Part shown: positions 13,621 through 32,705 of the stretch, one piece after another
How positions within the stretch are numbered: the stretch's first letter is position 1
Layout of the letters: each line of letters opens with the position of its first letter
IMG/VR virus record: IMGVR_UViG_3300046170_000028
Span: 1-33,699 of that record
Length of the DNA stretch: 33,699 bases
Source: a virus
Reading direction: 5' to 3' (one strand)
Notes under the pieces: generated by a model
Database searches by the model: none
Seen by the model: the letters and a program-made list of their open reading frames with translations, nothing else
What the model was told of the DNA's origin: nothing
Position numbers and translations under genes: made by a program

Positions 13621-15342
13621 TTAATCAAACCAACTAGTAATAAGGTCAGTAGCGCCGCCCAACAGCGAACCACCTAGACCCATAGCACCACTAAACATGC
13701 CGCCGTACAAACCAGCAAGTCCTGATCTTCTAGCAAGCTCTGCGTTAATATTAGCCATCTGAGTTTCTAATCCAAACTCACCTTGCTGTCTACGTGCTAC
13801 ATCAGACATAGATGCAATGTTCAACGCAGGAGACAGGGCTGACAAAAGTGCTGCTTGAGGTGCGTACCCTGCTTGCAACGCCTGTATTCCAAGCTGTTGT
13901 TCTGCACCAGCCAGCCCTTGACCACCAGCGAGAAGTCCTTGGCCTCCCGTCAGCGCCTGTAGCATCTGCTGTTGTCTAGCAGCATCAAGCGCCTGTCTTT
14001 GTGCCGCTAAACCAGAACCTAAGCTGGCGTACTGCTGCCCTAAGCCAGCCTGTTGTGCCTGTAAACCACCAGCAAGCTGTGCCAACTGACCTGCCTGTTG
14101 TGCTGATGTAGTTGCTCTGCCTAGACCCTCAGACTGCAACTGAGATTCAATCTGCTGTGCGCTGAGTCCAAGCTGTGACAACTGTGCTGCACGTTGTTGT
14201 GCTGCTGACTGAAGCTGACTAGAGAGTCCTGCCTGTTGACCAAACATGCCACCTAGAGTCTGTGCTGTGCCTAGAGCCTGCTGACGCTCTGCCTGTGCTT
14301 GCTGCATAGCCACTAATGAGGCTCTATCTTGTGCCTCTTCTTGTGCCTTAGACATCGCAAGCTGTTCTGGCGTACCACCAAACATCGCCGTACGCACACC
14401 TAAGCGTCCCTGTTGAGCCAAACGCTCTTCCAACTGTAACCGCTGTCGCTCTTCTTCAGGACGCTGTGTAGCCCTTATACGCTCAAATACGTCAGCCTCA
14501 CGAGCAGCCGTAGGAGTCAGTACGTCTTGTGCGGCTTGTCCTGCAAGACCTGCGTACTGGCTTCTGAGAGCTTCAATATCAGACGGAGCCTGTGTACCTA
14601 ATCCAGCAGCACCCATGCCTAATGCTTGTTGTCCAAACTGACCTATAGTTGGAGCCTGTAAAGCCTGTGGAGCGGGAACTTTAGGTTGTCCACCAAAAAA
14701 ACCCGCATCGTCTGAGATAAGGCCAGATAGGTCAAGCATTGGTTGGTCGTTAACGCCCCGAATCCCTCCTGTACCTGCTAATCCTGTGCCAGCAAAAGGA
14801 TCACCAACAGGTTTTTGTCCTGTAGGAACCGGAGTAGGTATTCCCACCTGCCCGCCGCCTAAAGCACCCGCAGCTTGTTGAGCAAACATTCCACGCAAAA
14901 GATTAAGGTCTGCCGGTTGTGTGCCAGCAGCGCCCATAAACTGACCACCTAAGCCAAACGCTTGCTGTGCTGCCTGTTGCTGCTGAGCTAGACCAAAAGG
15001 AGATGTGCCTATCATTTGTTGGCCTAAGTTCATAACGTCTAAGCCAGCAAACTGAGACTCTAGCGTACCTCTAGGATCTCCACCTAAGCGAAACTGCGCC
15101 TCATTCATTAGAATATTACTAATTTCTTGCTGTTGAGGGCTGAGGTTGTACGTGGTTCCGGTAGGACCACCTGTTACTGAACCTATGCCTCCAGACGTAA
15201 CCGTAAAGGGCTGAAACGTGACATCAGGTGCTGTTGCTTGGGGAACATCTGCAAAAGCGCCTGTTACTTCTGTTGGAAGCTCGCTATATAAACCACTAGC
15301 AATATCGCTAATGAATCCACCAAAAAGATCGCCAAGAGCCAT
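13621..15342 (-). CDS. Gln/Ala/Gly-rich structural or ejection protein
   Basis: A 573-residue low-complexity protein dominated by Gln, Ala, Gly and Leu, for example LAQQQQAAQQAFGLGGQF and LAGGLQAQQAGLGQQYASLG. The ends are hydrophobic and amphipathic: MALGDLFGGFISDIASGLY at the N-terminus and LYGGMFSGAMGLGGSLLGG at the C-terminus. Such long Gln-rich helices with membrane-active ends fit a podoviral ejection protein that forms a channel across the host envelope, which is inference. The ATG overlaps the stop of the 77-residue mini-fibre gene by one base (TGATGG). The repetitive DNA may be recombination-prone. Confidence 0.75.
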   Translation of the reverse strand: MALGDLFGGFISDIASGLYSELPTEVTGAFADVPQATAPDVTFQPFTVTSGGIGSVTGGPTGTTYNLSPQQQEISNILMNEAQFRLGGDPRGTLESQFAGLDVMNLGQQMIGTSPFGLAQQQQAAQQAFGLGGQFMGAAGTQPADLNLLRGMFAQQAAGALGGGQVGIPTPVPTGQKPVGDPFAGTGLAGTGGIRGVNDQPMLDLSGLISDDAGFFGGQPKVPAPQALQAPTIGQFGQQALGMGAAGLGTQAPSDIEALRSQYAGLAGQAAQDVLTPTAAREADVFERIRATQRPEEERQRLQLEERLAQQGRLGVRTAMFGGTPEQLAMSKAQEEAQDRASLVAMQQAQAERQQALGTAQTLGGMFGQQAGLSSQLQSAAQQRAAQLSQLGLSAQQIESQLQSEGLGRATTSAQQAGQLAQLAGGLQAQQAGLGQQYASLGSGLAAQRQALDAARQQQMLQALTGGQGLLAGGQGLAGAEQQLGIQALQAGYAPQAALLSALSPALNIASMSDVARRQQGEFGLETQMANINAELARRSGLAGLYGGMFSGAMGLGGSLLGGATDLITSWFD

Positions 15343-15575
15343 CAGTAAGTCCCTCCGTCAATCGTGCCTGTAGACAGAGTACCCGTAAACGTCAACGCAG
15401 GTATTGTTACAGTGCCTGTGAATGTAGGAGAAGCTAAGTTAGCCTTAGTTGCAATCGCTGTAGATATAGCGGTGAACTCAGTGTCAAACTCGCTACCACG
15501 AATAACTTTACCACTATCCCCAGAAGGTAAACTGTCCTTAGCAGTAAAGTTTGTTGTCTTTGTATAGTCGCTCAT
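15342..15575 (-). CDS. mini tail-fibre-like protein ending DGGTY
   Basis: A 77-residue protein, MSDYTKTTNFTAKDSLPSGD... . It has a short helix (FDTEFTAISTAIATKANLAS) of the kind that trimerises at phage fibre bases, then Thr-rich beta repeats PTFTGTVTIPALTFTGTLS. It ends TGTIDGGTY. The 314-residue fibre at 23859 ends STVDGGTY, so both share a C-terminal motif, and in both cases the stop overlaps the next start. It is probably a short fibre or fibre adaptor attached near the tail tube, since it follows the tail-tube B gene with a 4-base overlap. Confidence 0.75.
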   Translation of the reverse strand: MSDYTKTTNFTAKDSLPSGDSGKVIRGSEFDTEFTAISTAIATKANLASPTFTGTVTIPALTFTGTLSTGTIDGGTY

Positions 15576-17089
15576 ACTGTTTTACCCATTAGTGCTAATA
15601 CGTTAATTTCTTGGAGGGATAAAGCAGACCCGTTAATGTCAGCTTCTAGTCCTATCGTAATAATACTTCCGTTACCTGTTGCTTGAACAGCGTTTCTAGT
15701 CGTAAGCTCACCACCAGTAAACTCACCGATAGCAAACTCATCAACACCAAAGTACGCAGGTACTTGGTTGCCTACAGTAAACTCGTAAGTTCTAAAGTCC
15801 GTAGCTAGATCATAAGCCCACTTCATAAACACTGTTGCACCAGCAGCACCAACCAGAGTTGGCCTGAGTTTCTTTAGCAACTTTGTTTTAGCAGGATCAC
15901 CAAACGTCAGACCCGGACTGTAATACCTAAAACGATATGCTGTTGTGTTGTCAGAGTAACTTGAGTACGTCCCTAGTCCATCAGACGTTCCTATGTACAA
16001 CGTACCATCAGTTGTAACTTCAAATGATTTGTGTGGAATAGAAGTCCACCGTGTAACTCTGTACGCTCCGTTCTCAAGTCTACCTTTAAGATCAAAGCAG
16101 TACGCTGTAAGTTGATCTGGGAACGTAATGATGTAAAAAGAATTTTCAGGACTGTACACAGACGCCGTAGGTAACGTCCTGTTGTTAATCAAACTAATAA
16201 TCTCAGTCTTTACATTCAGGCTTAGGTCAGATATAGGCAGTGACTTTTCTTGTATAGTACGGCCTAAGCTCCTGAGTCCTGTGTTAGACATAAACAAAAC
16301 ATCTGTGCCAATGTGCTGTACAGAGTTTCTACAGATGCACCCAACACCCGCTACTGTGTCAACAAGAGCCATACTAGCTGGACTAGAGGCACCTCCATAC
16401 ACAAGTATGCTGTGCTTGCCAAAGATAATAAGAGTGTTGTTGTGTGCTGCTAACGCCCTAACTTCATCGTACCCATCAGGCCAAGCCTTAGATACATCTA
16501 TAGAACCACTGGAACCACCAGTAAAGTCTGCTCCAATTAAGAGATCAGACCAGTAAATTGTTTGTGTGTCTGTTGCGTTATCTACAACCCACAGTCTGCC
16601 GTAAGCTGCCAGAGCTTCGTGACACTTTAAAGTTGCTGCCGTAGCACCGCCGTTAGCCACAGTAAACGTACGTAATCCCGTAGCGTTGTCGTACACCAGA
16701 GGATCGTAACCACGTTGGAAAAAGTAAGCCTTGTCGTTAAAGTTTACAATCTTCCAGTTGTTAGCTGTGATAGTGTATGAGCCGGGAGTTACGTCAGTTA
16801 ACGTAGTTGTCCCTGTCATAATTTTGTTGTTACCAGCAGTAAATACTACTTCGTTACCCGCATCATCGTAGAAGTAATGAATCTTGTGTACGTAGTCAGT
16901 ACCTAGTGCAGTCTTGTTAGTAGTAACAACATCAATACCCTTACGTGCAGCAATACGTCCACGCTTGTCAATCACAGCGTTGTCAGCAACGTCAGCGTAA
17001 GAAGGATCCTGTGCAATAGGAGAGTCTTCTGTGTTGACTCCTTTAAATGCAGGAGCAACTAAGTTGATGCTTTGTAGTGGCTGTGCCAT
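15572..17089 (-). CDS. tail tube B / tail nozzle-like protein
   Basis: A 505-residue beta-rich protein with repeated strand patterns throughout, for example NWKIVNFNDKAYFFQRGYDP, YGRLWVVDNATDTQTIYWSD and NTLIIFGKHSILVYGG. These look like propeller blades. The N-terminus SINLVAPAFKGVNTEDSPIA and the DKRGRIAARKGIDVV segment resemble podoviral nozzle proteins (T7 gp12 or P22 gp10 class), from general recollection. It lies directly after the tail tube A gene in transcription order, the conserved podoviral order. It would close the tail tip and hold fibres. The exact subfamily cannot be told by eye. Confidence 0.75.
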   Translation of the reverse strand: MAQPLQSINLVAPAFKGVNTEDSPIAQDPSYADVADNAVIDKRGRIAARKGIDVVTTNKTALGTDYVHKIHYFYDDAGNEVVFTAGNNKIMTGTTTLTDVTPGSYTITANNWKIVNFNDKAYFFQRGYDPLVYDNATGLRTFTVANGGATAATLKCHEALAAYGRLWVVDNATDTQTIYWSDLLIGADFTGGSSGSIDVSKAWPDGYDEVRALAAHNNTLIIFGKHSILVYGGASSPASMALVDTVAGVGCICRNSVQHIGTDVLFMSNTGLRSLGRTIQEKSLPISDLSLNVKTEIISLINNRTLPTASVYSPENSFYIITFPDQLTAYCFDLKGRLENGAYRVTRWTSIPHKSFEVTTDGTLYIGTSDGLGTYSSYSDNTTAYRFRYYSPGLTFGDPAKTKLLKKLRPTLVGAAGATVFMKWAYDLATDFRTYEFTVGNQVPAYFGVDEFAIGEFTGGELTTRNAVQATGNGSIITIGLEADINGSALSLQEINVLALMGKTV

Positions 17090-17100
17090 ACGTCAGGCTC

Positions 17101-17748
17101 CTACGGAGTGTACCAAATGGTTTCTTCAGGGTGCTTCTGTGCGTCCAGAGCAATCGCGTCAGACAAAAACTTATCAGCAATACCAAAGTACTCAGGTGCT
17201 GATGTACCGCCTGTCTCGCCACGTTCACGAGCTAATAGAGCTACCGCCATGTGTATCACGGGTTGACTAGGTATACTCAGTACATCTGTATCAGCACTCA
17301 ACTCAGCGTTCCTAAGAGTACAGTTAAATCTCAAGCTGTACACACCATCAGGCTTAGGGTAAACGTCTACTTGAGTGTCACCACTAGCATCAACGCCGTT
17401 GTACGTGTAGTACTCAGGTGAGCCACTGGGTGGTGATTGGTTCAAGTACTTATCGTTAAACCAGTGTTGAGTGTTGTACTGCATAAAAAGGTTTGAGGTG
17501 TCGTTAATTACGTCTAATACCTTAATTTTATTTTGTGATCCAGTGAGTACGTAGTTAAAAATATCAGCAGACGTAGTTACCGTAAGGGTAGTCCTGAGTG
17601 CTGACCAATCCCAAGCATCCTCTACCATCTTCTTAGAGTCATTTACAAAGTCACCCACCATTTTGCTGTAGGTGTTGTCATTGACACTAGATACCTCGTC
17701 TTCACGTAAGCGTCTCAGCACGTTGTTTACTAAGTTTAAATATGTCAT
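17101..17748 (-). CDS. head-tail adaptor / tail tube A (T7 gp11-like)
   Basis: A 215-residue protein with the features of the podoviral adaptor family. The N-terminal helix LNLVNNVLRRLREDEVSSV is followed by VGDFVNDSKKMVEDAWDWSALR, where the WDWSALR helix-turn is typical. A beta-rich middle (FNYVLTGSQNKIKVLDVIND) precedes a C-terminal helical part (HMAVALLARERGETGG). Length is near T7 gp11 (196). It would connect the portal to the nozzle protein. It overlaps the Cys-rich 899-residue gene by 4 bases and precedes the nozzle gene by 11 bases. Confidence 0.82.
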   Translation of the reverse strand: MTYLNLVNNVLRRLREDEVSSVNDNTYSKMVGDFVNDSKKMVEDAWDWSALRTTLTVTTSADIFNYVLTGSQNKIKVLDVINDTSNLFMQYNTQHWFNDKYLNQSPPSGSPEYYTYNGVDASGDTQVDVYPKPDGVYSLRFNCTLRNAELSADTDVLSIPSQPVIHMAVALLARERGETGGTSAPEYFGIADKFLSDAIALDAQKHPEETIWYTP

Positions 17749-20444
17749 GCTCTACCGCCTCCAGTGCCAGTAAAGAGTCCTGCTAAGTAGTCTGTAATAG
17801 GAAACTGTCTACCTGCTAAAAGCTCAGGATCACCTTCTATTCCCATAGAAATTTCTGGTGCTTCTGCGGTAAAGCCGCCTCCACCGCCGCCTCCGCCTCC
17901 ACCGCCTCCGGGTGTAGTAACAGGAGGATCAACAGGAGGCACAATAGGAGGCACAACAGGTGGTGGGCATTTCCCGTCTTCGTAGCTGTCTACTGGTGTG
18001 CCATCTTCACAGGTTTCACACCCGCTTTCAACTGTAGCGCCGTTGTCACAAACCTCAGTACCTCCACCGCCACCACACTTTAAATCCCACGCTCGTTGTT
18101 GGTCTATCAAGTCAAAAGTAACTGTTCCTGTAGGTCTTGGTTTGTTACAGTCTACAACAAAGCTGCCATCAGTACCACATTCGTCCTCATTCTCTGAGGC
18201 GTATACTGGGTCGTCACACGGGTTTGTTACTGATCCGCAAGCTGCTTCTTTGTCTACAAAAGTACCATCAGGGCACTTCTTTTTACCACATAAATCTGCG
18301 TTTTCGTCTGTTATCTCTGAACACTCTAAAGGATCACCGCCATTACCATCGTCGGTGTCACTAGTTACTAATGTTGGTCCTTGAGATGGATTACAAGGGT
18401 CGTAAGTGTACTGATTGCCACCAAAAGTGTAGCTTCCGTTTTTCTCTAAGTCGTTAAAGTCGTACTCAGGTGGTTGTCCGTCTAACTCAGTACCTTCGCC
18501 GCACAAGTCTCCTTGGGGTGGCGTAACCTCTTCTTTACACTCTGGTAGATCTTTGTTTTCTTCCTTAGCACAGAAGGCTGCACTACCCGGACACAGTTCA
18601 CTTTCTGGGTCTTCGTCACAAGGGTCTATCTCAACTATTTTTTCTCCACATCCATCAATAGGATCTTCTTCACCTTCAACTTCGTATCCTTCTGGACACA
18701 CACAGGCCTGAGCAGCTTCGCTCCACTCAGCAACTTCACTTACGCATCTAGGGTCTACTACGCCTTCACAGTCTTTTAACAGCCTGTATCCACCACTTAA
18801 CTGTTGGCCTGTTTCGGGGTCTACTGTAGCATTACAGTCTACGTATCCTTCTTCAAAACACTGGTCTGCATTTTTTTCGTAGTATTCAGCCTGTTCACAG
18901 CTTACGGGTGTAAAAGGTAAAAACGGGTTGTCTGAGTCTACTACAATCTCGTCTTTTATTCTGTCGCCTAAGATTCCTACGATAGCACCAAAGCCAGCGT
19001 CTGTAAGTATCCTTATTAAGTTGCCCCAAGTTTTGTCTTCTGCTGAGTTCCAGATGTCCTTAATTTTTTCCCAGACGTTACCAAATACATCCTTTATTGT
19101 TCCTACTGGATCCTCAAGAAAATCCTCAAAAGACTTACCAGCGTCCTTAAGAGCGTCTTCAATTTCACCTATTGTAGCGTTTGCGCCCATGCCACCCGGA
19201 AGAGGAAAGTCTATGCCGGGGATGGGTATAATCATACCAACGGTTACACAGTCCCTGTACCACTCTTCTCCGGGACCGCCTGCTGCTTTACAGTCTTCGC
19301 TTAGGCCCGGAAGAATAGTCCTTACTAGCTCACCAACGCACTCAACAGCGTTATCTGGGTTAGTACACCTATCCCACTTGTTCTTGATCTTATCGTAGAG
19401 TCCTTTAAACTTGTCTACGATGTCCTTACCAAATTCGTCGTAGAGTCCTTGGAACTCGTCAGGTGCGTCCTGTTGACACTCTGGTTTATCTTTGTTTTCT
19501 TCCAGATTACAGTCTGTAACACCGCCAACGTCAGGACACTCGTCTCTACTGTTAGCAAAAATTCCTCCACCACAGTTAAACAGCGTGTTAGTATTATTAT
19601 CGCAGTCTTCTTGTGATCTCGCGTAAACAGGGCGTTCTACTGTATTTCCGTCTCCATCATCAAAAGTAACTAGATTATCAGCACATTCAACTAAGTTGTC
19701 TAAATCTGTTTCACACTCTTCTGCGTTTTCTTGAGTAATAACTGTGCAGTCTGGGGCATTAGGATCTACTAGAGGGACACACCCACCATCAGCGTCTCTT
19801 TTGCCTTCTACTCTAGTACCATCAATAGTTTCATAGCATGTTGTGTTTTCTGTTGTGGTTGTAACACACTCTCCATTAGAGTAAGTTCCGGGTCCGTCGT
19901 CGTTAACACACTCAGTTCCATTTTCTTTCTTAGGGTTAACACCCCAGTTACTACAGTTGCTGTATCCTGCTTCACAGAGAGCATTGGATAACACGTTGTT
20001 ACCAGAAAAGTTGTCGTTGTCTACCCCAGCCGCTAGAATCTCATCTATAGCTTCATCTGAGTATCCGTTGCTTTTTAAAATTGCTCGTATTTTTTCGTCA
20101 GTTATGTTTTCGTCTAAGACAGACTCTTTTGTAATAAAGTCGTTGTAGTAATCTGACCAGCCTTCAATACCAGATAAAAGTCCAGAGTCAAAGTCTCTAA
20201 GCTCTAATAAAGATGCTTCGCCGCGACCATAGGCGTCTAGGAGTCTTTGCCACTCTTGAAGCGCCTTTAGTTGTCCCGGAGATACAGATCCTTCGGGTGC
20301 TTGTGATGGCGGTAAAACTGCACCAACACCAGTAGGACCAGACTCAGAAAAGGTTGGGACGTTGCTCTCATCGTTACAGTACTTCTGGGAGACATTTTCA
20401 CAGAGCCAGTTTCTATAGGGCATCCCTTCTACTGTGTCATCCAT
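17745..20444 (-). CDS. very large Cys-rich, Gly-linker protein of unknown function
   Basis: An 899-residue protein that I do not recognise. There is a short helical N-terminal region, then a Cys-rich acidic zone (about 130-335) with degenerate units such as CNLEENKDKPECQQ. A central part without many Cys follows (about 335-510), with amphipathic helices (FKGLYDKIKNKWDRC) and a hydrophobic stretch (NLIRILTDAGFGAIVGILG). A second Cys-rich zone comes next (about 515-815), with CAKEENKDLPECKEE echoing the first. A Pro-rich stalk (PPIVPPVDPPV) and a run of 12 Gly lead to a short hydrophobic C-terminus (PITDYLAGLFTG). Dozens of Cys imply disulfides or metal sites, so action outside the cytoplasm (virion surface or envelope) is likely. 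It sits between the holin-type genes and tail tube A. Confidence 0.8.
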   Translation of the reverse strand: MDDTVEGMPYRNWLCENVSQKYCNDESNVPTFSESGPTGVGAVLPPSQAPEGSVSPGQLKALQEWQRLLDAYGRGEASLLELRDFDSGLLSGIEGWSDYYNDFITKESVLDENITDEKIRAILKSNGYSDEAIDEILAAGVDNDNFSGNNVLSNALCEAGYSNCSNWGVNPKKENGTECVNDDGPGTYSNGECVTTTTENTTCYETIDGTRVEGKRDADGGCVPLVDPNAPDCTVITQENAEECETDLDNLVECADNLVTFDDGDGNTVERPVYARSQEDCDNNTNTLFNCGGGIFANSRDECPDVGGVTDCNLEENKDKPECQQDAPDEFQGLYDEFGKDIVDKFKGLYDKIKNKWDRCTNPDNAVECVGELVRTILPGLSEDCKAAGGPGEEWYRDCVTVGMIIPIPGIDFPLPGGMGANATIGEIEDALKDAGKSFEDFLEDPVGTIKDVFGNVWEKIKDIWNSAEDKTWGNLIRILTDAGFGAIVGILGDRIKDEIVVDSDNPFLPFTPVSCEQAEYYEKNADQCFEEGYVDCNATVDPETGQQLSGGYRLLKDCEGVVDPRCVSEVAEWSEAAQACVCPEGYEVEGEEDPIDGCGEKIVEIDPCDEDPESELCPGSAAFCAKEENKDLPECKEEVTPPQGDLCGEGTELDGQPPEYDFNDLEKNGSYTFGGNQYTYDPCNPSQGPTLVTSDTDDGNGGDPLECSEITDENADLCGKKKCPDGTFVDKEAACGSVTNPCDDPVYASENEDECGTDGSFVVDCNKPRPTGTVTFDLIDQQRAWDLKCGGGGGTEVCDNGATVESGCETCEDGTPVDSYEDGKCPPPVVPPIVPPVDPPVTTPGGGGGGGGGGGGFTAEAPEISMGIEGDPELLAGRQFPITDYLAGLFTGTGGGRA

Positions 20445-20447
20445 AGC

Positions 20448-20825
20448 TTACTTACCACCCTTTAGCTGCATCAGCTTGTCAGCACCACGTATGCCAAAGC
20501 TGGCTGTGACTGCAACGTACAAAAGATATTGATACCACTCAGGTAGCTTCCCTAGCTCTGCAAAGGCAATGCCTACGCGACCAATGATATCAAGATCGTT
20601 CATACCTACGCCCCACATAATAGCTATCACAGGTGCACTCAGGACTACTGTGAACCACTCGTCTTTCCACGAGGATGCACTAGCCTGTGCCATGTGCTGT
20701 TCCCAAGATGCTGTGTTTTGTATTACTTGCATCTTAGCTACGTGTTTAGCTTGTGACTGCTCGTGACGATTGCTCATCCAAGTCTTAGCGAGTCCAGCAA
20801 TAGGACTAATGAGTGCTTGCCACAC
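20448..20825 (-). CDS. holin, GTA 3TM type
   Basis: A 125-residue membrane protein. After a basic amphipathic N-terminal helix (NRHEQSQAKHVAKMQVIQ), it has SASSWKDEWFTVVLSAPVIAI, then LGKLPEWYQYLLYVAVTASFGIRG. The SWKDEW and LPxWYQ...ASFGIRG patterns match the family of 3TM holins described from gene-transfer agents (recalled as PF11351). It would permit endolysin release at lysis. The start is GTG, directly after the stop of the 57-residue membrane gene. The endolysin itself lies 12 kb away at 32.3 kb, so the lysis genes are split. Confidence 0.75.
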   Translation of the reverse strand: MWQALISPIAGLAKTWMSNRHEQSQAKHVAKMQVIQNTASWEQHMAQASASSWKDEWFTVVLSAPVIAIMWGVGMNDLDIIGRVGIAFAELGKLPEWYQYLLYVAVTASFGIRGADKLMQLKGGK

Positions 20826-20999
20826 TTACGACTTACCTCTGTTACGCCAGCCTTGCACCGTGTCTGTTTCCCAGATGCGTATACCTGTCCACACGAGTGT
20901 CAACAACGCAGCTAAGGAAGGCAGTACGCCAGCCAAAGCACCAACACCAGTTGCTACAGAAACTGTATCCATTACCTCTTTCATACCTTGATCTGCCAT
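20826..20999 (-). CDS. small membrane protein, possible holin partner
   Basis: A 57-residue ORF, MADQGMKEVMDTVSVATG... . A hydrophobic stretch of about 24 residues (GALAGVLPSLAALLTLVWTG) is followed by RIWETDTVQGWRNRGKS, a charged cytoplasmic-type tail. It fits one membrane helix with the positive end inside. The stop is directly followed by the GTG of the 3TM holin, and the start lies 2 bases from the previous gene, so it is tightly packed in a membrane-protein trio. A second holin, antiholin or spanin-like role is possible but unproven. Confidence 0.72.
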   Translation of the reverse strand: MADQGMKEVMDTVSVATGVGALAGVLPSLAALLTLVWTGIRIWETDTVQGWRNRGKS

Positions 21000-21001
21000 C
21001 C

Positions 21002-21469
21002 TTATGCACCTTTGATAATTACTGTCGTGCCGTAAATAATACTGGCTGTTACGACAGCGGCTATAGATACAAGAAAAGTGTCTAGTAGCATACGTTGTCT
21101 CTTGCGTTGCTTGTAGATAACTTCTTCTCTTTGTGCTTTAATCTTACGCCTCAGCATTATCATTTCTTGATAAGTCTCGACACCGTAAGACCACACAATA
21201 AGTTCTCGTATCTGTTTCTCTTGCTCCTCTAGCTTTTTCTTAGCTATGACGCTGTTGAGTGCTTGTTGCTCTACGGTGTTACCATCAAATAACTTTTTGA
21301 ATACACCGGGATTCTCAGCTTCTTTTTCTGCTTGTTTTATGTCAGACGCAAAGCTGTACCACTGCCCTAACTTCTGAGCAACGTGCTCAATCTCAGCACC
21401 TCTGTTTACAAGCGTCTGTACACCCTTGAAGGTTGTAGACGCCATAGCAATTAAAGAAAGAGGATCCAT
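21002..21469 (-). CDS. membrane-anchored coiled-coil protein
   Basis: A 155-residue protein. The N-terminus MDPLSLIAMASTTFKGVQTL is mildly hydrophobic. A long charged helical middle follows (KKKLEEQEKQIRELIVW and LRRKIKAQREEVIYKQRKRQ). It ends with one clear transmembrane segment (LLDTFLVSIAAVVTASIIYG, about 129-148). It lies directly upstream of two further membrane genes, suggesting a lysis or envelope-interaction module. An Rz-like spanin is one possibility, but the anchor is C-terminal instead of N-terminal, so I do not assign it. Confidence 0.72.
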   Translation of the reverse strand: MDPLSLIAMASTTFKGVQTLVNRGAEIEHVAQKLGQWYSFASDIKQAEKEAENPGVFKKLFDGNTVEQQALNSVIAKKKLEEQEKQIRELIVWSYGVETYQEMIMLRRKIKAQREEVIYKQRKRQRMLLDTFLVSIAAVVTASIIYGTTVIIKGA

Positions 21470-21792: not shown

Positions 21793-23859
21793 TTATTCTC
21801 CTTTTAGTGCCGCTACTTCGGCTTTTAAGTCTTGAATTTCTTTAATCATCATTGGGACTAGCTTGCTGTAATCAACAGCCCACATATCGTCTTCAGTTTC
21901 ACCTTGTGTTACTGCTTCAGGTGCAACGTCAACGAGTTCTTGTGCAACCATGCCGTAGGTCTGGTGTGATCCGTCAGCCTTCCAATCAAAAGAACGTACA
22001 CGGATATCATCAATGTTACCTGCTGGTGCGTCTACAATGTTTTCTTTGAGGCGCTGGTCTGAGGATGTGTTGTAAGTTGTGGTTGTTGTGCCAACGCTAA
22101 TGTACCCAGCCAAAGTAGCCCCTGTATGAAATCTAATAGCAGTCCAACCAGTACCGCCGCTATTGTGCATTTCTAATCCAGTGCCTGTGCTTTGTATACC
22201 TATCGCAACTTTTGGAGATGTGCTATATGTAGATGTTGTACCAACCAGCAAGTTACCAGAGCTATCAATACGCATACGCTCTGAGCCGTTGTAGTTACTG
22301 TTTGCTGATTGCGTCCTAAATATAATTTTGTTTTTACTGGCAGTACTGGAGCCTACACAATCAAGATAAAGGCCGTCTACTGCACCAACTGCGGCTTGTT
22401 GAGACTCTGTACCATCAAGAATAAGAGCGTTAGTGTCTGTTCCTCCTATGTTTATAAACTTAGCCCAACCAGAAGAACTTGTAGGAGTCGCAGTGCCAAT
22501 ACCTACGTTTCCAGAGCCATCAATACGCATACGCTCTGTGTTGCTGGTAAAAAACGTAACAGGGTTTGCTGTGAGGTTAGCCACTCTAAACTGGCTAGAG
22601 CTTGCGTAGAGGTAGCCGTAAGTTGACCCTCCAGCTTTAAGCTCAATCGCGCTATCTGATGTGCCATCTACATCAATAAGCCCCCTACCTGAAGAAGCCA
22701 ATGCGCCAGCACTTGTAGAGTTCACCAACAAGTTACCAGAGCTATCAATACGCATAGCTTCAGAATTAAAAGAGAAGTCCGTATTAAGAATGTCCCAAGT
22801 CAATGCAGAGGCAGCGGCGCGGTTTCTGTAGTATTTAGCTGCTGCAGTTTCGCTCATTACAACACCGGGAGCAGAGCCACTTAAATGTAGCTGAAACTGA
22901 GGACTCGTAGTGCCAATACCTACGTTGCCGCCGCCAGCATTAAGAATTAGTGGATCAGCACCCGTGTTACCAGACGACAAGTACGCATTAGTGGTATCAC
23001 ACCAAAGTTTTGCTGATTGTGCGGCTGTAGAATCTACAATCGCTAAACCGCCAGTGCTTGCGTTTGTTGTCTGGACTAATGCAGTCTTTCCGTAAACGCT
23101 TGGGTTAGTAGTACCAATACCAACTTGACCAGAGCTATTAATACGGACAGCTTCGTTTGTATTAGTAATAAAACGCATTGCGTTAATATTGTGATCGTAA
23201 CGGATGTTTCCAATGTTGGCGTCGTTACTATCGCCAAAGTTAATAAGGCACTCCCCAGTTGTGCTCGCAATCATTTCAAAAATAGCATCAGCGGATGAGC
23301 CTGTTCCGTTTGTTTTTATTCTAAAAGATACATCTTCACCTGAAGCCGTAGATGGGTTTTCTACTAAAAAGTTTTTGGTGGTGCTTGTGGCTCCTATAGA
23401 TACGCGACCAGAGCTATCTATACGCATACGCTCTGTGTTGTTAGTGCCAAACAAAACGGTGCTGTTTGCTCTGTTCCATACATAAGCATCGCTTCCAGAA
23501 CCCTGACCGTAGAAAGCAGAGGTAGAGCCAACGGTGTTGCCGTTACCTGCAAACTCCACTCCAGCACCTGTACTTGATCCAGCCGCTATATTTAAAAGCT
23601 CTGTGGCTGATGTTGTGCCTATAGATACTCTGCCAGAGCTATCAATCGTAATCGCAGTGCTTGTGGCGTTATCGTCGATACCTGTGGAGGTGAATGTACC
23701 CGTAGTCAAACTAGTAGGGTTTGTCCCAACCTCAATAACAGTACCGCTTGCGTTTTCTGTGTAGAGGCGCTTATTAGTTAAGTCCAGCGCAGGTTCACCC
23801 TGAACAAGATCACTTGCCGCTGGTGCGCCTGAACCGTTCTTTAGCTTAATTGTAGTCAT
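21793..23859 (-). CDS. tail fibre with S74 self-cleaving chaperone domain
   Basis: A 688-residue tail fibre. The shaft is built from repeats of the type RMRIDSSGNLLVGT and VGIGTTSP, seen at least six times, interleaved with variable modules. The C-terminal 89 residues form a peptidase S74 intramolecular chaperone: SDQRLKENI with catalytic S600 and K605, then RSFDWKADGSHQTYGMVAQEL, and a final coiled coil (LVPMMIKEIQDLKAEVAAL). Known S74 domains trimerise the fibre and then cut themselves off at that Ser. The start ATG overlaps the stop of the 314-residue fibre (TAATG). It probably determines host recognition. Confidence 0.92.
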   Translation of the reverse strand: MTTIKLKNGSGAPAASDLVQGEPALDLTNKRLYTENASGTVIEVGTNPTSLTTGTFTSTGIDDNATSTAITIDSSGRVSIGTTSATELLNIAAGSSTGAGVEFAGNGNTVGSTSAFYGQGSGSDAYVWNRANSTVLFGTNNTERMRIDSSGRVSIGATSTTKNFLVENPSTASGEDVSFRIKTNGTGSSADAIFEMIASTTGECLINFGDSNDANIGNIRYDHNINAMRFITNTNEAVRINSSGQVGIGTTNPSVYGKTALVQTTNASTGGLAIVDSTAAQSAKLWCDTTNAYLSSGNTGADPLILNAGGGNVGIGTTSPQFQLHLSGSAPGVVMSETAAAKYYRNRAAASALTWDILNTDFSFNSEAMRIDSSGNLLVNSTSAGALASSGRGLIDVDGTSDSAIELKAGGSTYGYLYASSSQFRVANLTANPVTFFTSNTERMRIDGSGNVGIGTATPTSSSGWAKFINIGGTDTNALILDGTESQQAAVGAVDGLYLDCVGSSTASKNKIIFRTQSANSNYNGSERMRIDSSGNLLVGTTSTYSTSPKVAIGIQSTGTGLEMHNSGGTGWTAIRFHTGATLAGYISVGTTTTTYNTSSDQRLKENIVDAPAGNIDDIRVRSFDWKADGSHQTYGMVAQELVDVAPEAVTQGETEDDMWAVDYSKLVPMMIKEIQDLKAEVAALKGE
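22253..23645 (-). repeat. dispersed DNA repeats encoding RIDSSG units
   Basis: A CCAGAGCTATCAATACGCAT-like unit (plus-strand reading) recurs near 22255, 22511, 22736, 23109, 23408 and 23632 within the S74 fibre gene. Each encodes a MRIDSSG-type shaft repeat. Nearly identical spaced units would allow recombination that lengthens, shortens or swaps fibre modules. Confidence 0.75.
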
Positions 23860-24803
23860 TAATAAGTTCCTCCGTCAACAGTTGACAGTGTTGTAGAAAT
23901 AGAAGTTGTACCAGAGCCAGTGACTGCACCGGACAGTGTGATCGTTTGGTTGCCTGTGAGATACCCAGCACTAGCGTGATTACCCCAGCCGTAAGCAGTG
24001 TCCCATTGACCTACTTTAGTATCAGTAATATTGTTAGTACCCATGTCGATAGTGTTGCCGTTAGCATCTAACGTACCGCCTAACTGTGGTGTTGTGTCGC
24101 CTACTAGGTTTGGATTAATAGTATCCCAAGCACTTCCTGTGTAAATCCTAGTGCTGTTATCTGACGTATTAAAGTACCAATCACCTGTTGTTACTGCGTT
24201 ACCGTTACCGTCTACAGTTGGGTTACTTGATTGTGCGCCTAAGTAAAGCCCGTCAATAGCGTCCTTAGCGGATTCTGCGGCTGTTGCAGACGTAGCTGCT
24301 GCTGTAGCACTAGAGGCTGCTGCCGTTGCGCTGGAGGCCGCTGCAGTGGCGCTAGAGGCTGCATTGGTAGCCTGTGTAGTAGCTGTTGTTGCTTGTGTTG
24401 TTGCTGTGGTTGCGCTAGTAGCTGCATTAGTAGCACTTGTGCTGGCTTCACTGGCTTTAGTAGTAGCTGTAGTAGCCTGTGTTGTTGCTGTAGTAGCAGA
24501 TGTAGCAGCAGACGTAGCAGATGTTGACGCAGCAGATGCTTGTGTTGTTGCTGTAGTAGCACTACCAGAAGCACTGGTTGCACTGGATGCTGCTGCAGTT
24601 GCACTAGAAGCCGCTGCTGTTGCGTTAGAAGCTACACCAGACTCACTAGCCGCAGCGTTGGTTGCACTGGTTGCTGCAGCAGTAGCCGATGCAGAAGCTT
24701 CGTTTGCTTTTGTAGTAGCAGTCTGGGCGTTCTGTGCTACCTGTGACGCATACGCATCCGTAGAGGCATCACCTGAACCACCGTCACCCCGAAAGATAGG
24801 CAT
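23859..24803 (-). CDS. Ala/Ser/Thr-rich tail fibre or fibre adaptor
   Basis: A 314-residue protein. Residues about 20-190 are nearly all Ala, Ser and Thr with a 7-residue period (ATAAASS and TTATTQA type units), a pattern that forms a long trimeric coiled rod in phage fibres. After ESAKDAIDGLYLGA comes a folded region with WYFNTSDNSTRIYTGSAWD, a common fibre module, and then repeats with LGGTLDANGNTIDMGTNNI. It ends STVDGGTY, matching the 77-residue mini-fibre. It lies between the capsid terminator and the S74 fibre, and is probably the stalk that carries it. Confidence 0.85.
   Translation of the reverse strand: MPIFRGDGGSGDASTDAYASQVAQNAQTATTKANEASASATAAATSATNAAASESGVASNATAAASSATAAASSATSASGSATTATTQASAASTSATSAATSATTATTQATTATTKASEASTSATNAATSATTATTQATTATTQATNAASSATAAASSATAAASSATAAATSATAAESAKDAIDGLYLGAQSSNPTVDGNGNAVTTGDWYFNTSDNSTRIYTGSAWDTINPNLVGDTTPQLGGTLDANGNTIDMGTNNITDTKVGQWDTAYGWGNHASAGYLTGNQTITLSGAVTGSGTTSISTTLSTVDGGTY
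24279..24720 (-). repeat. imperfect 21-bp tandem repeats (7-residue units)
   Basis: Plus-strand units such as GCTAGAGGCTGCTGCCGTTGC and close variants repeat in register, encoding 7-residue Ala/Ser/Thr heptads of the fibre rod. Third-position changes between copies show the protein period is under selection. Copy number is likely to vary between relatives. Confidence 0.75.
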
Positions 24804-31270: not shown

Positions 31271-31699
31271 CTAGTTACAAACTCCAGCGTCTTCTGAGTT
31301 ATCAAACTGATTGTCACCACAGCCGTACTTACCGTCGTTATCGGTGTCACAGAAACGGCTCCAAGCCTGCATATCAAATGTATAACCTTCGCTCCACGGC
31401 ACGTAAGTCTTACACCACTGATGTGATCCTACAGCAAAAGGATCTTGTGGTTGTTCTACGTAGTCACGCTTAGTCCACGGCTTTTGTACACGAAAGAACG
31501 TGTCTTTGTTTTTCATTAGCTGTCGCTTGAACAGAGAGCTACTAGGCGTACTGATGTAGATTTCTTGGTTGTCCTCTAGGGTGTACGTAGATCCGTCGTC
31601 ATAGTTGATAACAGTTTCTGCTTTGGCTCCGATAGAAACTAGAGAAAAAAGGAATACTGCTGCAAAACCTAGTACCATTTCGTTTACTTTGTTAGTCAT
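31271..31699 (-). CDS. exported protein with a Ca-binding-like Asp loop
   Basis: A 142-residue protein. MTNKVNEMVLGFAAVFLFSL VSIGAKA is a signal peptide (cleavage likely after AKA at about residue 27). The mature part has YDDGSTYTLEDNQEIYIS and PWSEGYTFDMQAWSRFC. The end carries DTDNDGKYGCGD, a D-x-D-x-D-G loop like calcium sites in EF-hand or dockerin-type repeats, and paired Cys. It would act in the periplasm or at the cell surface, for instance in superinfection exclusion or lysis, which is inference. The start overlaps the redoxin stop (ATGA). Confidence 0.75.
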   Translation of the reverse strand: MTNKVNEMVLGFAAVFLFSLVSIGAKAETVINYDDGSTYTLEDNQEIYISTPSSSLFKRQLMKNKDTFFRVQKPWTKRDYVEQPQDPFAVGSHQWCKTYVPWSEGYTFDMQAWSRFCDTDNDGKYGCGDNQFDNSEDAGVCN

Positions 31700-31926
31700 T
31701 GTGAAAGTTCTCCTACGTTGTTTAGGGCTTCTCTAAAGTCTTTTGAACCACCAAAGTGGTAAAAGATTTGTGGTATAGATCGTTTTCCTGTCAGTTGTTC
31801 TACTAAGTCCCAACCGGCTTGACCCGGAGGTATGTGTACGTACTTGTAGTCTAAGTTGTGCTCTTTTGCAATTTTGGTTGCTCTTTTGCAAGCAGGACAC
31901 CAATCAGCACCAACAATGGTAATCAC
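31696..31926 (-). CDS. glutaredoxin/thioredoxin-like protein
   Basis: A 76-residue redox protein: ITIVGADWCPACKRATKIAK with the active-site pair C10-P-A-C13, and RSIPQIFYHFGG with the cis-Pro (P52). Length fits small phage glutaredoxins/NrdH. A logical substrate is the C-terminal Cys pair of the class II reductase. It is encoded in the late operon, far from the reductase, so this link is inference. The start is GTG, weakly preceded by GGAAA. The gene is flanked by a small beta protein and an exported protein. Confidence 0.87.
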   Translation of the reverse strand: MITIVGADWCPACKRATKIAKEHNLDYKYVHIPPGQAGWDLVEQLTGKRSIPQIFYHFGGSKDFREALNNVGELSQ

Positions 31927-32304: not shown

Positions 32305-32646
32305 CTAGTAAACCCAGATTACAGGGACAGTTCCCCGTGTATCAACGTGAATAAAGTCACCAGCGACCCCTATGCCAGTAAATCCCATAGATAGAGCTTC
32401 TCTTATTAACGTGTACCGGTGTGCAGCGTTTGTTATTTTTATGTCTGCTGCTATGCCTTGCGCGTGGGTTCCCGGTACGTCCTTTTTAGCTTCTATAGGG
32501 TGGCTAGGGCTTCTGTAGCCGCTGGTGATAACAAAAGGGAAACCGCAGTTGTCCCTGAGTTGGTCTAACTTGAGTAAAAACTCGTCTTCCATACGGTTCT
32601 CACCGGTATGTTGACAGTTAAACTCTTCTTTAGTGAAGTTTTTCAA
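32305..32646 (-). CDS. M15-type endolysin (D-Ala peptidase)
   Basis: A zinc peptidase of about 113 residues: NFTKEEFNCQHTGENRM, FVITSGYRSPSHPIEA, THAQGIAADIKI and GDFIHVDTRG. The H...D...H arrangement is the M15 metal site (SxHxxG/AxAxDI and HxD types). It would cut peptidoglycan cross-links at lysis. I start it at TTG 32646, where AGAGGAA is 5-7 bases upstream and TTGA overlaps the stop of the micro-ORF. A TTG at 32664 extends it by 6 residues (MSRGRF) and is the alternative. No signal peptide is visible, so it needs the holin encoded at 20.4-20.8 kb. Confidence 0.88.
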   Translation of the reverse strand: MKNFTKEEFNCQHTGENRMEDEFLLKLDQLRDNCGFPFVITSGYRSPSHPIEAKKDVPGTHAQGIAADIKITNAAHRYTLIREALSMGFTGIGVAGDFIHVDTRGTVPVIWVY

Positions 32647-32705
32647 GAATCTTCCTCTTGACAACCGCAGTCACAGCCACAGATGCTACTCTTGAGAGTA
32701 CTCAC
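32643..32705 (-). CDS. Cys-rich micro-ORF
   Basis: A possible 20-residue peptide starting at GTG 32705: MSTLKSSICGCDCGCQEEDS. Four Cys alternate with single residues (CGCDCGC), a metal-chelating look. It overlaps the end of the small-terminase gene in another frame, and its TGA overlaps the TTG start of the endolysin, as in coupled genes elsewhere in this genome. The ribosome binding site (GAAGG) is adjacent and poor. Real coding is uncertain. Confidence 0.4.
   Translation of the reverse strand: MSTLKSSICGCDCGCQEEDS

Follow-up and report, generated by a model that had tools for sequence, protein, structure and literature searches.

A modular cysteine-rich protein family with even cysteine numbers, probably disulfide-stapled, encoded in the tail gene block of uncultured podoviruses

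The gene at positions 17745..20444 of the window, i.e., the whole 33,699-base IMG/VR virus record analyzed here, encodes an 899-aa protein with 46 cysteines and belongs to a previously uncatalogued family. Comparison of this protein with its relatives strongly supports the view that the cysteines sit in locally closed disulfide cassettes within the chain and not in metal sites. As for its role, the reading that we favor, and to which we give about an even chance, is that of a modular virion protein that its tail would dock on the particle and whose disulfide-stapled body would project outward and take part in host contact.

Results

The window derives from an uncultured podovirus. Searches retrieved a short-tailed-phage gene set (terminase, capsid, S74 spike, adaptor, nozzle, and class II RNR), and the portal, scaffold, primase, and DNA polymerase were assigned by reading the sequence. 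The Cys-rich gene starts a few bases past the end of a conserved upstream neighbor, the gene for a 125-aa protein of PHROG 2524 (20448..20825, minus strand; assigned by PHROG match and from relatives). It is followed by a head-tail adaptor gene of the SU10_adaptor family (17101..17748, minus strand; PF24175, E = 1.6e-12), then by the gene for a nozzle-like tail protein (15572..17089, minus strand), and then by four more genes of internal or virion type; the third gene downstream encodes the virion protein int1 (13621..15342, minus strand). The nozzle-like protein was assigned from PHROG structural matches and from the gene immediately behind the adaptor gene in HMO-2011 and A-4L, which it matches by profile, and the adaptor and nozzle profiles match adjacent genes in HMO-2011, A-4L, CHP58, and HTVC115P. 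A preliminary description of this DNA, made from the letters alone, had placed the Cys-rich gene where a tail spike or lysis factor could be, and the adaptor and nozzle-like genes downstream bear out a location in the tail gene block. PHROG 5107 labels the nozzle-like protein as 'amidase', and its CHOED homolog is labeled 'amidase' or 'nonribosomal peptide synthetase'; these labels look like misannotations.

The Cys-rich gene and all of its parts are on the minus strand (20444 to 17745). The product begins with a mostly helical N-terminal module (residues 1-165, 19950..20444; AF2) that is exchangeable among relatives, followed by a first Cys zone (residues 157-323, 19476..19976; Cys positions and AF2), predicted to be mainly beta. 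Next comes a central helical, partly hydrophobic domain (residues 330-541, 18822..19457), delimited by iterated HMM and alignment, and then a second Cys zone (residues 516-826, 17967..18899; Cys positions). The protein ends with a Pro-rich stalk (residues 827-845, 17910..17966), a linker of 12 consecutive Gly (residues 846-857, 17874..17909), and a conserved 42-aa putative docking tail (residues 858-899, 17748..17873) of type a, GDPxLLxxxxFPITDYLxGLFTG. The Gly run is 2 to 16 long in relatives and thus not a fixed element. Cysteine makes up 5.1% of residues, 95 Asp and 91 Glu stand against 59 Lys/Arg, and the pI is 4.05; across the family, the median pI is 4.05 and the maximum 5.18. The cysteines fall at residues 15-23, 157-399, and 516-826, leaving residues 23-157 and 399-516 as the largest Cys-free spans, the second of them within the helical, partly hydrophobic center. 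The preliminary description of two Cys-rich, acidic zones around such a center, along with its coordinates, length, and Gly12 run, was thus confirmed. So were the two echoing units that it took as a sign of internal duplication, EENKDKPEC, ending at Cys323, and EENKDLPEC, ending at Cys636; the duplication also holds up, and the echo belongs to a set of short Cys motifs repeated across the family. One such repeat of four cysteines, C-x(6-13)-C-G-x(3)-C-x-[DNGE]-[GN]-x(5-11)-C, occurs once in the window protein, in its second Cys zone, and six times in the largest member, a 1677-aa protein with 118 Cys (7.0%; L017 67-5100).

The same description had named a lack of translation as something that would count against it. 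We consider the ORF to be translated, because the gene is under purifying selection (dN/dS 0.12-0.42 in seven pairs), its homologs at the same locus are open along their entire length, and it overlaps the adaptor gene by a 4-bp ATGA.

Structure prediction was poor over most of the protein (AF2 mean pLDDT 63 and pTM 0.28 at full length), with residues 51-170 reaching a pLDDT of 73-95 and the central domain modeled alone giving a pLDDT of 64 and a pTM of 0.51. Foldseek searches of these low-confidence models against PDB and BFVD returned nothing at E<=0.001, which is not evidence of a new fold, and the best VIA-align hit (Z 4.3) covered only a 49-residue helical stretch. Sequence searches of PDB gave weak matches restricted to the Pro/Gly-rich end, and neither Pfam nor PHROG revealed a carbohydrate-binding, lectin, or known receptor-binding domain. 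The central helical core weakly matches the tape measure family phrog_1535 (E = 1.1e-5, 159 residues). We rejected a tape measure identity, given that the match covers only 129 of 1152 profile positions, that the rest of the protein is unlike this family, and that the adaptor-then-nozzle order is that of a short-tailed phage.

Relatives were sought in IMG/VR using the Cys-rich protein, the adaptor, and the nozzle as baits and keeping the best 80 loci per scan of more than 550, which gave about 140 contigs, all metagenomic, with relatives at the same locus. Cataloging the gene directly before the adaptor among these best loci yielded 84 distinct complete ORFs, 44 of them Cys-rich, with bodies holding 18-118 Cys, and 40 Cys-poor. 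The latter class is nearly Cys-free (32 ORFs with no Cys, six with two, and two with four), and in at least two of its entries, L047 and L056, the ORF is apparently another small gene that was inserted ahead of the adaptor; these two contain no Cys and leave the parity test described below unaffected. An extra gene of 220-250 aa (MASINYVPGVG...) lies between the modular gene and the adaptor in some relatives (L007 2704-3375 and L047 2645-3397). Both classes have a C-terminal tail of about 40 aa in common, and the iterated HMM detected the central domain in 43 of the 125 proteins at this locus, including nine that have 0-4 Cys. Since Cys-free proteins carry the same central domain and tail, the Cys cassettes are optional additions to a common scaffold, and in Cys-free members long low-complexity stalks stand in for the Cys zones. 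The preliminary description had named homologs lacking the cysteines as grounds for dropping its proposals. Such homologs do exist, with the same domain, tail, and locus, and they make the cassettes optional; they do not prove them unimportant where present. One Cys-free protein of 602 aa at this locus (L267 1648-3456) comes from a contig that binning assigned to a Sphingobacteriales MAG, which is not proof of host.

Beyond IMG/VR, no relatives of the Cys-rich protein were found among 50,697 named phages, and tblastn of named phages with the Cys-rich protein, two distant homologs, a Cys-free sibling, the adaptor, and int1 likewise gave none. A literature search for a described Cys-rich marine phage protein also found none.

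The cysteines of the family follow a parity rule. The number of Cys is even in 50/50 intact members that have any, a count over related and not independent sequences to which we attach no single p value. Two members judged to be broken were left out, namely, the frameshifted L005 (32 Cys) and L040 (33 Cys, the only odd count), whose ORF stops about 360 nt before the adaptor and lacks the tail; the exclusion of L040 was decided after its count had been seen. Three further Cys-bearing members added later have 4, 6, and 2 Cys, all even. Among the edges of a similarity-based minimum spanning tree, 41 involve a change in Cys number and none of these is an odd step, and the counts of W, H, M, F, Y, K, R, and P in the same proteins are about 50:50 odd and even. 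The rule also holds within chains: every Cys-free gap of at least 40 aa in the Cys-rich members has an even Cys count on each side (81/81). At gaps of 15-24 aa, the count to the left is more often odd (243 vs 110), as would be expected if such gaps sit inside a bonded pair. In homologous modules of six close pairs, no Cys site was lost or gained out of 180, with other positions changing. Paired and conserved cysteines, as looked for in a disulfide-stabilized protein, were found in all three comparisons, and the even-Cys rule places the earlier suggestion of a protein rich in disulfides that works away from the reducing cytoplasm on a far stronger basis than it had before.

The high Cys content could also be read as the mark of a metal-loaded (Zn or Fe-S) structure, which the preliminary description had offered as another option. 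We find this scarcely credible, as 86 of 125 Cys clusters are sized 2 mod 4, so that most are not multiples of four, CxxC is rare (143 occurrences among 2032 Cys), and the window protein has no match to a metal-binding family over the Pfam cut-off.

The C-terminal tail offers a link to the rest of the particle. Tails are of type a (FPITDYL-like) or of others, mostly type b (GISYxxP...DYMxxLNxII), and int1 has two N-terminal types. Both were typed by regular expressions, with three int1 assignments corrected by eye before the final count; profile-based typing was abandoned, as each profile took in both types, which are mutually homologous. Tail type agrees with the int1 N-terminal type in 98/99 genomes. 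The sole disagreement (L114 177-7479) is a recombinant or a chimeric assembly. Mapped on the nozzle tree, tail and int1 types show 17 switches apiece but only 18 when the two are combined, with about 17 parallel switches; about 10.5 independent pairs changed in the same direction and none in the opposite one (p ~0.001). Support from the adaptor tree, which has few supported branches, is weaker (p ~0.06). A relative such as L029, with a nozzle 99% and an adaptor 96% identical to those of the window, has both tail and int1 of the other kind. An FxP[FY] motif occurs in 98/103 int1 N-termini and in 42/132 tails, vs 0.13 per 1000 aa elsewhere. From these patterns, we infer that the tail and int1 either make contact or use a common docking site. 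The Peptidase_S74 domain is common in fibers, and 8 of 30 int1 homologs have one at their C-terminus; a DNA ejection PHROG matches these homologs as well, so the S74 domain does not settle the question of location.

Because int1 occupies the usual ejection-protein position of podoviruses and the hydrophobic core is weakly tape-measure-like, an ejected internal protein would fit as well. Such a protein would wait in reduced form in the head or tail, be extruded together with int1 and the remaining internal proteins, and become oxidized in the host periplasm, where it would help to build a trans-envelope channel. The covariation of tail type with int1 is in keeping with this rather unlikely alternative, as is the finding that int1 to int3, too, diverge between close relatives. 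On the other hand, a protein with a pI of 4.05 would be awkward cargo beside packaged DNA, local disulfides that had formed after lysis would impede passage through a narrow lumen, and the long low-complexity stalks of the Cys-free versions suit an exterior tether better. An exterior, host-facing body is the reading we prefer because of the acidity of the family, the lack of a signal-peptide-like start in the window protein, these stalks, and the hypervariability of the gene.

This hypervariability is plain among close relatives: identity is mostly 93-100% for the flanking 125-aa, 155-aa, capsid, and adaptor proteins and 26-65% for the Cys-rich protein. The gene is thus hypervariable relative to its neighbors, in the manner looked for in receptor-binding and tail-fiber genes, and it is one of several fast genes, with variation in the S74 spike and in int1 to int3 too. 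Part of the variation consists of whole blocks. A 237-nt cassette in the first Cys zone (19518..19754, minus strand; 79 aa, 6 Cys) is 99.2% identical between the window and an otherwise divergent phage, L011, the adaptors of the two being 64% identical; further near-identical blocks join the divergent pairs L128 with L030 and L128 with L008; and the N-terminal module is swapped for a different one in L001, L011, and L020. These comparisons show a cassette structure and module exchange, and the locus is a cassette-shuffled gene. In contig L001 (1-4095), the left half is 99.8% identical to L011 and the right half 100% identical to the window, with the joint at the shared 237-nt cassette; it may be a real recombinant or an assembly chimera, and this DNA mosaic was kept out of the evidence.

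Variability and architecture together suggest a putative adhesin role. A virion location and host contact are each deduced with moderate confidence. Against the reading that we favor stand the poor AF2 models with no fold match, the negative searches for a binding domain, and the dedicated fiber and S74 spike genes elsewhere in the window (21793-24803). The Cys-free L114 protein matches tail-fiber PHROGs, possibly via low complexity.

A lysis or envelope-acting factor, as the preliminary description had also proposed, would accord with the small genes with holin-like features (20826-21469) directly before the Cys-rich gene. We regard this as highly improbable, however: the window encodes an M15 peptidase elsewhere (32305-32664), likely the phage endolysin, which is present in 6/9 related contigs, Cys-free ones among them. 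The window protein has no hydrophobic or signal-peptide-like start (maximum 19-aa hydropathy 1.38) and no muralytic Pfam match, and its tail is common to the Cys-free versions.

The late operon of the window includes, between the terminase and M15 peptidase genes, a gene for a 76-aa glutaredoxin-like protein with a WCPAC motif (31696..31926, minus strand; PF00462 over the cut-off). Glutaredoxin is present in 5/5 Cys-rich genomes with the region covered, vs 3/14 genomes with 0-6 Cys (hypergeometric 56/11628, ~0.005, calculated by hand and ignoring phylogeny). It is possible that it acts as a thiol helper for the Cys-rich protein. As a strict partner it was rejected, since it occurs with Cys-poor proteins too. 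It could also simply serve the phage ribonucleotide reductase, an explanation weakened by the Cys-free phages that keep the RNR without glutaredoxin. A thioredoxin was looked for and none was found. Beside the glutaredoxin gene, 31271-31699 (minus strand) encodes a 142-aa protein with a signal-peptide-like start, 4 Cys, and no Pfam match.

Discussion

Disulfides are rare in phages because phage parts are made in the reducing cytoplasm. A close comparison is with Agrobacterium phage Milano, in which an extensive disulfide network stabilizes the virion and the structural proteins contain 2.1% Cys, above normal phage levels (PMC10491603, PMC10811340). Our search of the phage collection gave no match to the Cys-rich protein. 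Both cases involve phage virion proteins with raised Cys content and many disulfides, predicted ones in ours. Milano, however, is a myophage whose key bonds run between chains of many proteins, whereas here a single protein has 5-7% Cys, even per chain and per cluster. By analogy with Milano, the Cys-rich protein might be a protective or stabilizing virion part, collar- or whisker-like, with disulfides that harden the particle and no part in receptor binding. This we hold to be quite improbable, because even counts per chain and cluster argue for bonds within the chain, and because cassette shuffling and Cys-free alternatives misfit a pure stabilizer.

In having one gene sharply divergent between phages with nearly identical flanks, the locus resembles metaviromic islands, the hypervariable host-recognition genes of marine phages, which encode tail fibers, lectins, and C1q-like proteins and are described in the main text of that work without reference to cysteine (PMC3909814). 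Unlike these, the Cys-rich family matches no tail fiber, lectin, or C1q-like domain. Short-tailed phages of the HMO-2011, HTVC115P, and A-4L types have homologs of the adaptor, nozzle, and capsid genes, arranged much as here, and, in the stretches read, no Cys-rich protein of this kind. The short Cys-rich repeats with conserved spacing are reminiscent of EGF-like and other small disulfide-rich repeats, but no EGF-like six-Cys profile matched over the Pfam cut-off (cEGF reached E = 0.11 in L019). Neither the Cys-rich family nor a parity rule is described in the Milano and metaviromic-island papers that we searched; what is new here is the even-Cys rule, the absence of Cys loss in 180 sites, and the matching of tail and int1 types.

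In the arrangement that we favor, the C-terminal tail would dock the protein on the tail complex, most likely beside or through the int1 protein, and the flexible Pro/Gly linker would connect this dock with the body, in which Cys cassettes surround the helical core. Each cassette, having an even number of Cys, would close on itself by local disulfides. Given the lack of a signal peptide, these would arise following lysis, in oxygenated water, or, with lower probability, in the host periplasm. Thus stapled, the body would project outward, probably in host contact, and would have been diversified through recombination of whole closed cassettes. A more tentative suggestion, which we think somewhat doubtful as a whole, is that self-closing, even-Cys cassettes are swapped as units so that any recombinant folds, that either of two allele-matched tails anchors the product in the virion, and that the phage glutaredoxin aids thiol folding.

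The matching of tail and int1 types predicts concretely which proteins of the virion are in contact, and checking for even Cys counts offers an easy way to find more such proteins in any metagenome. If our reading is true, a widespread group of uncultured phages would be able to recombine a variable virion protein freely without losing its fold.
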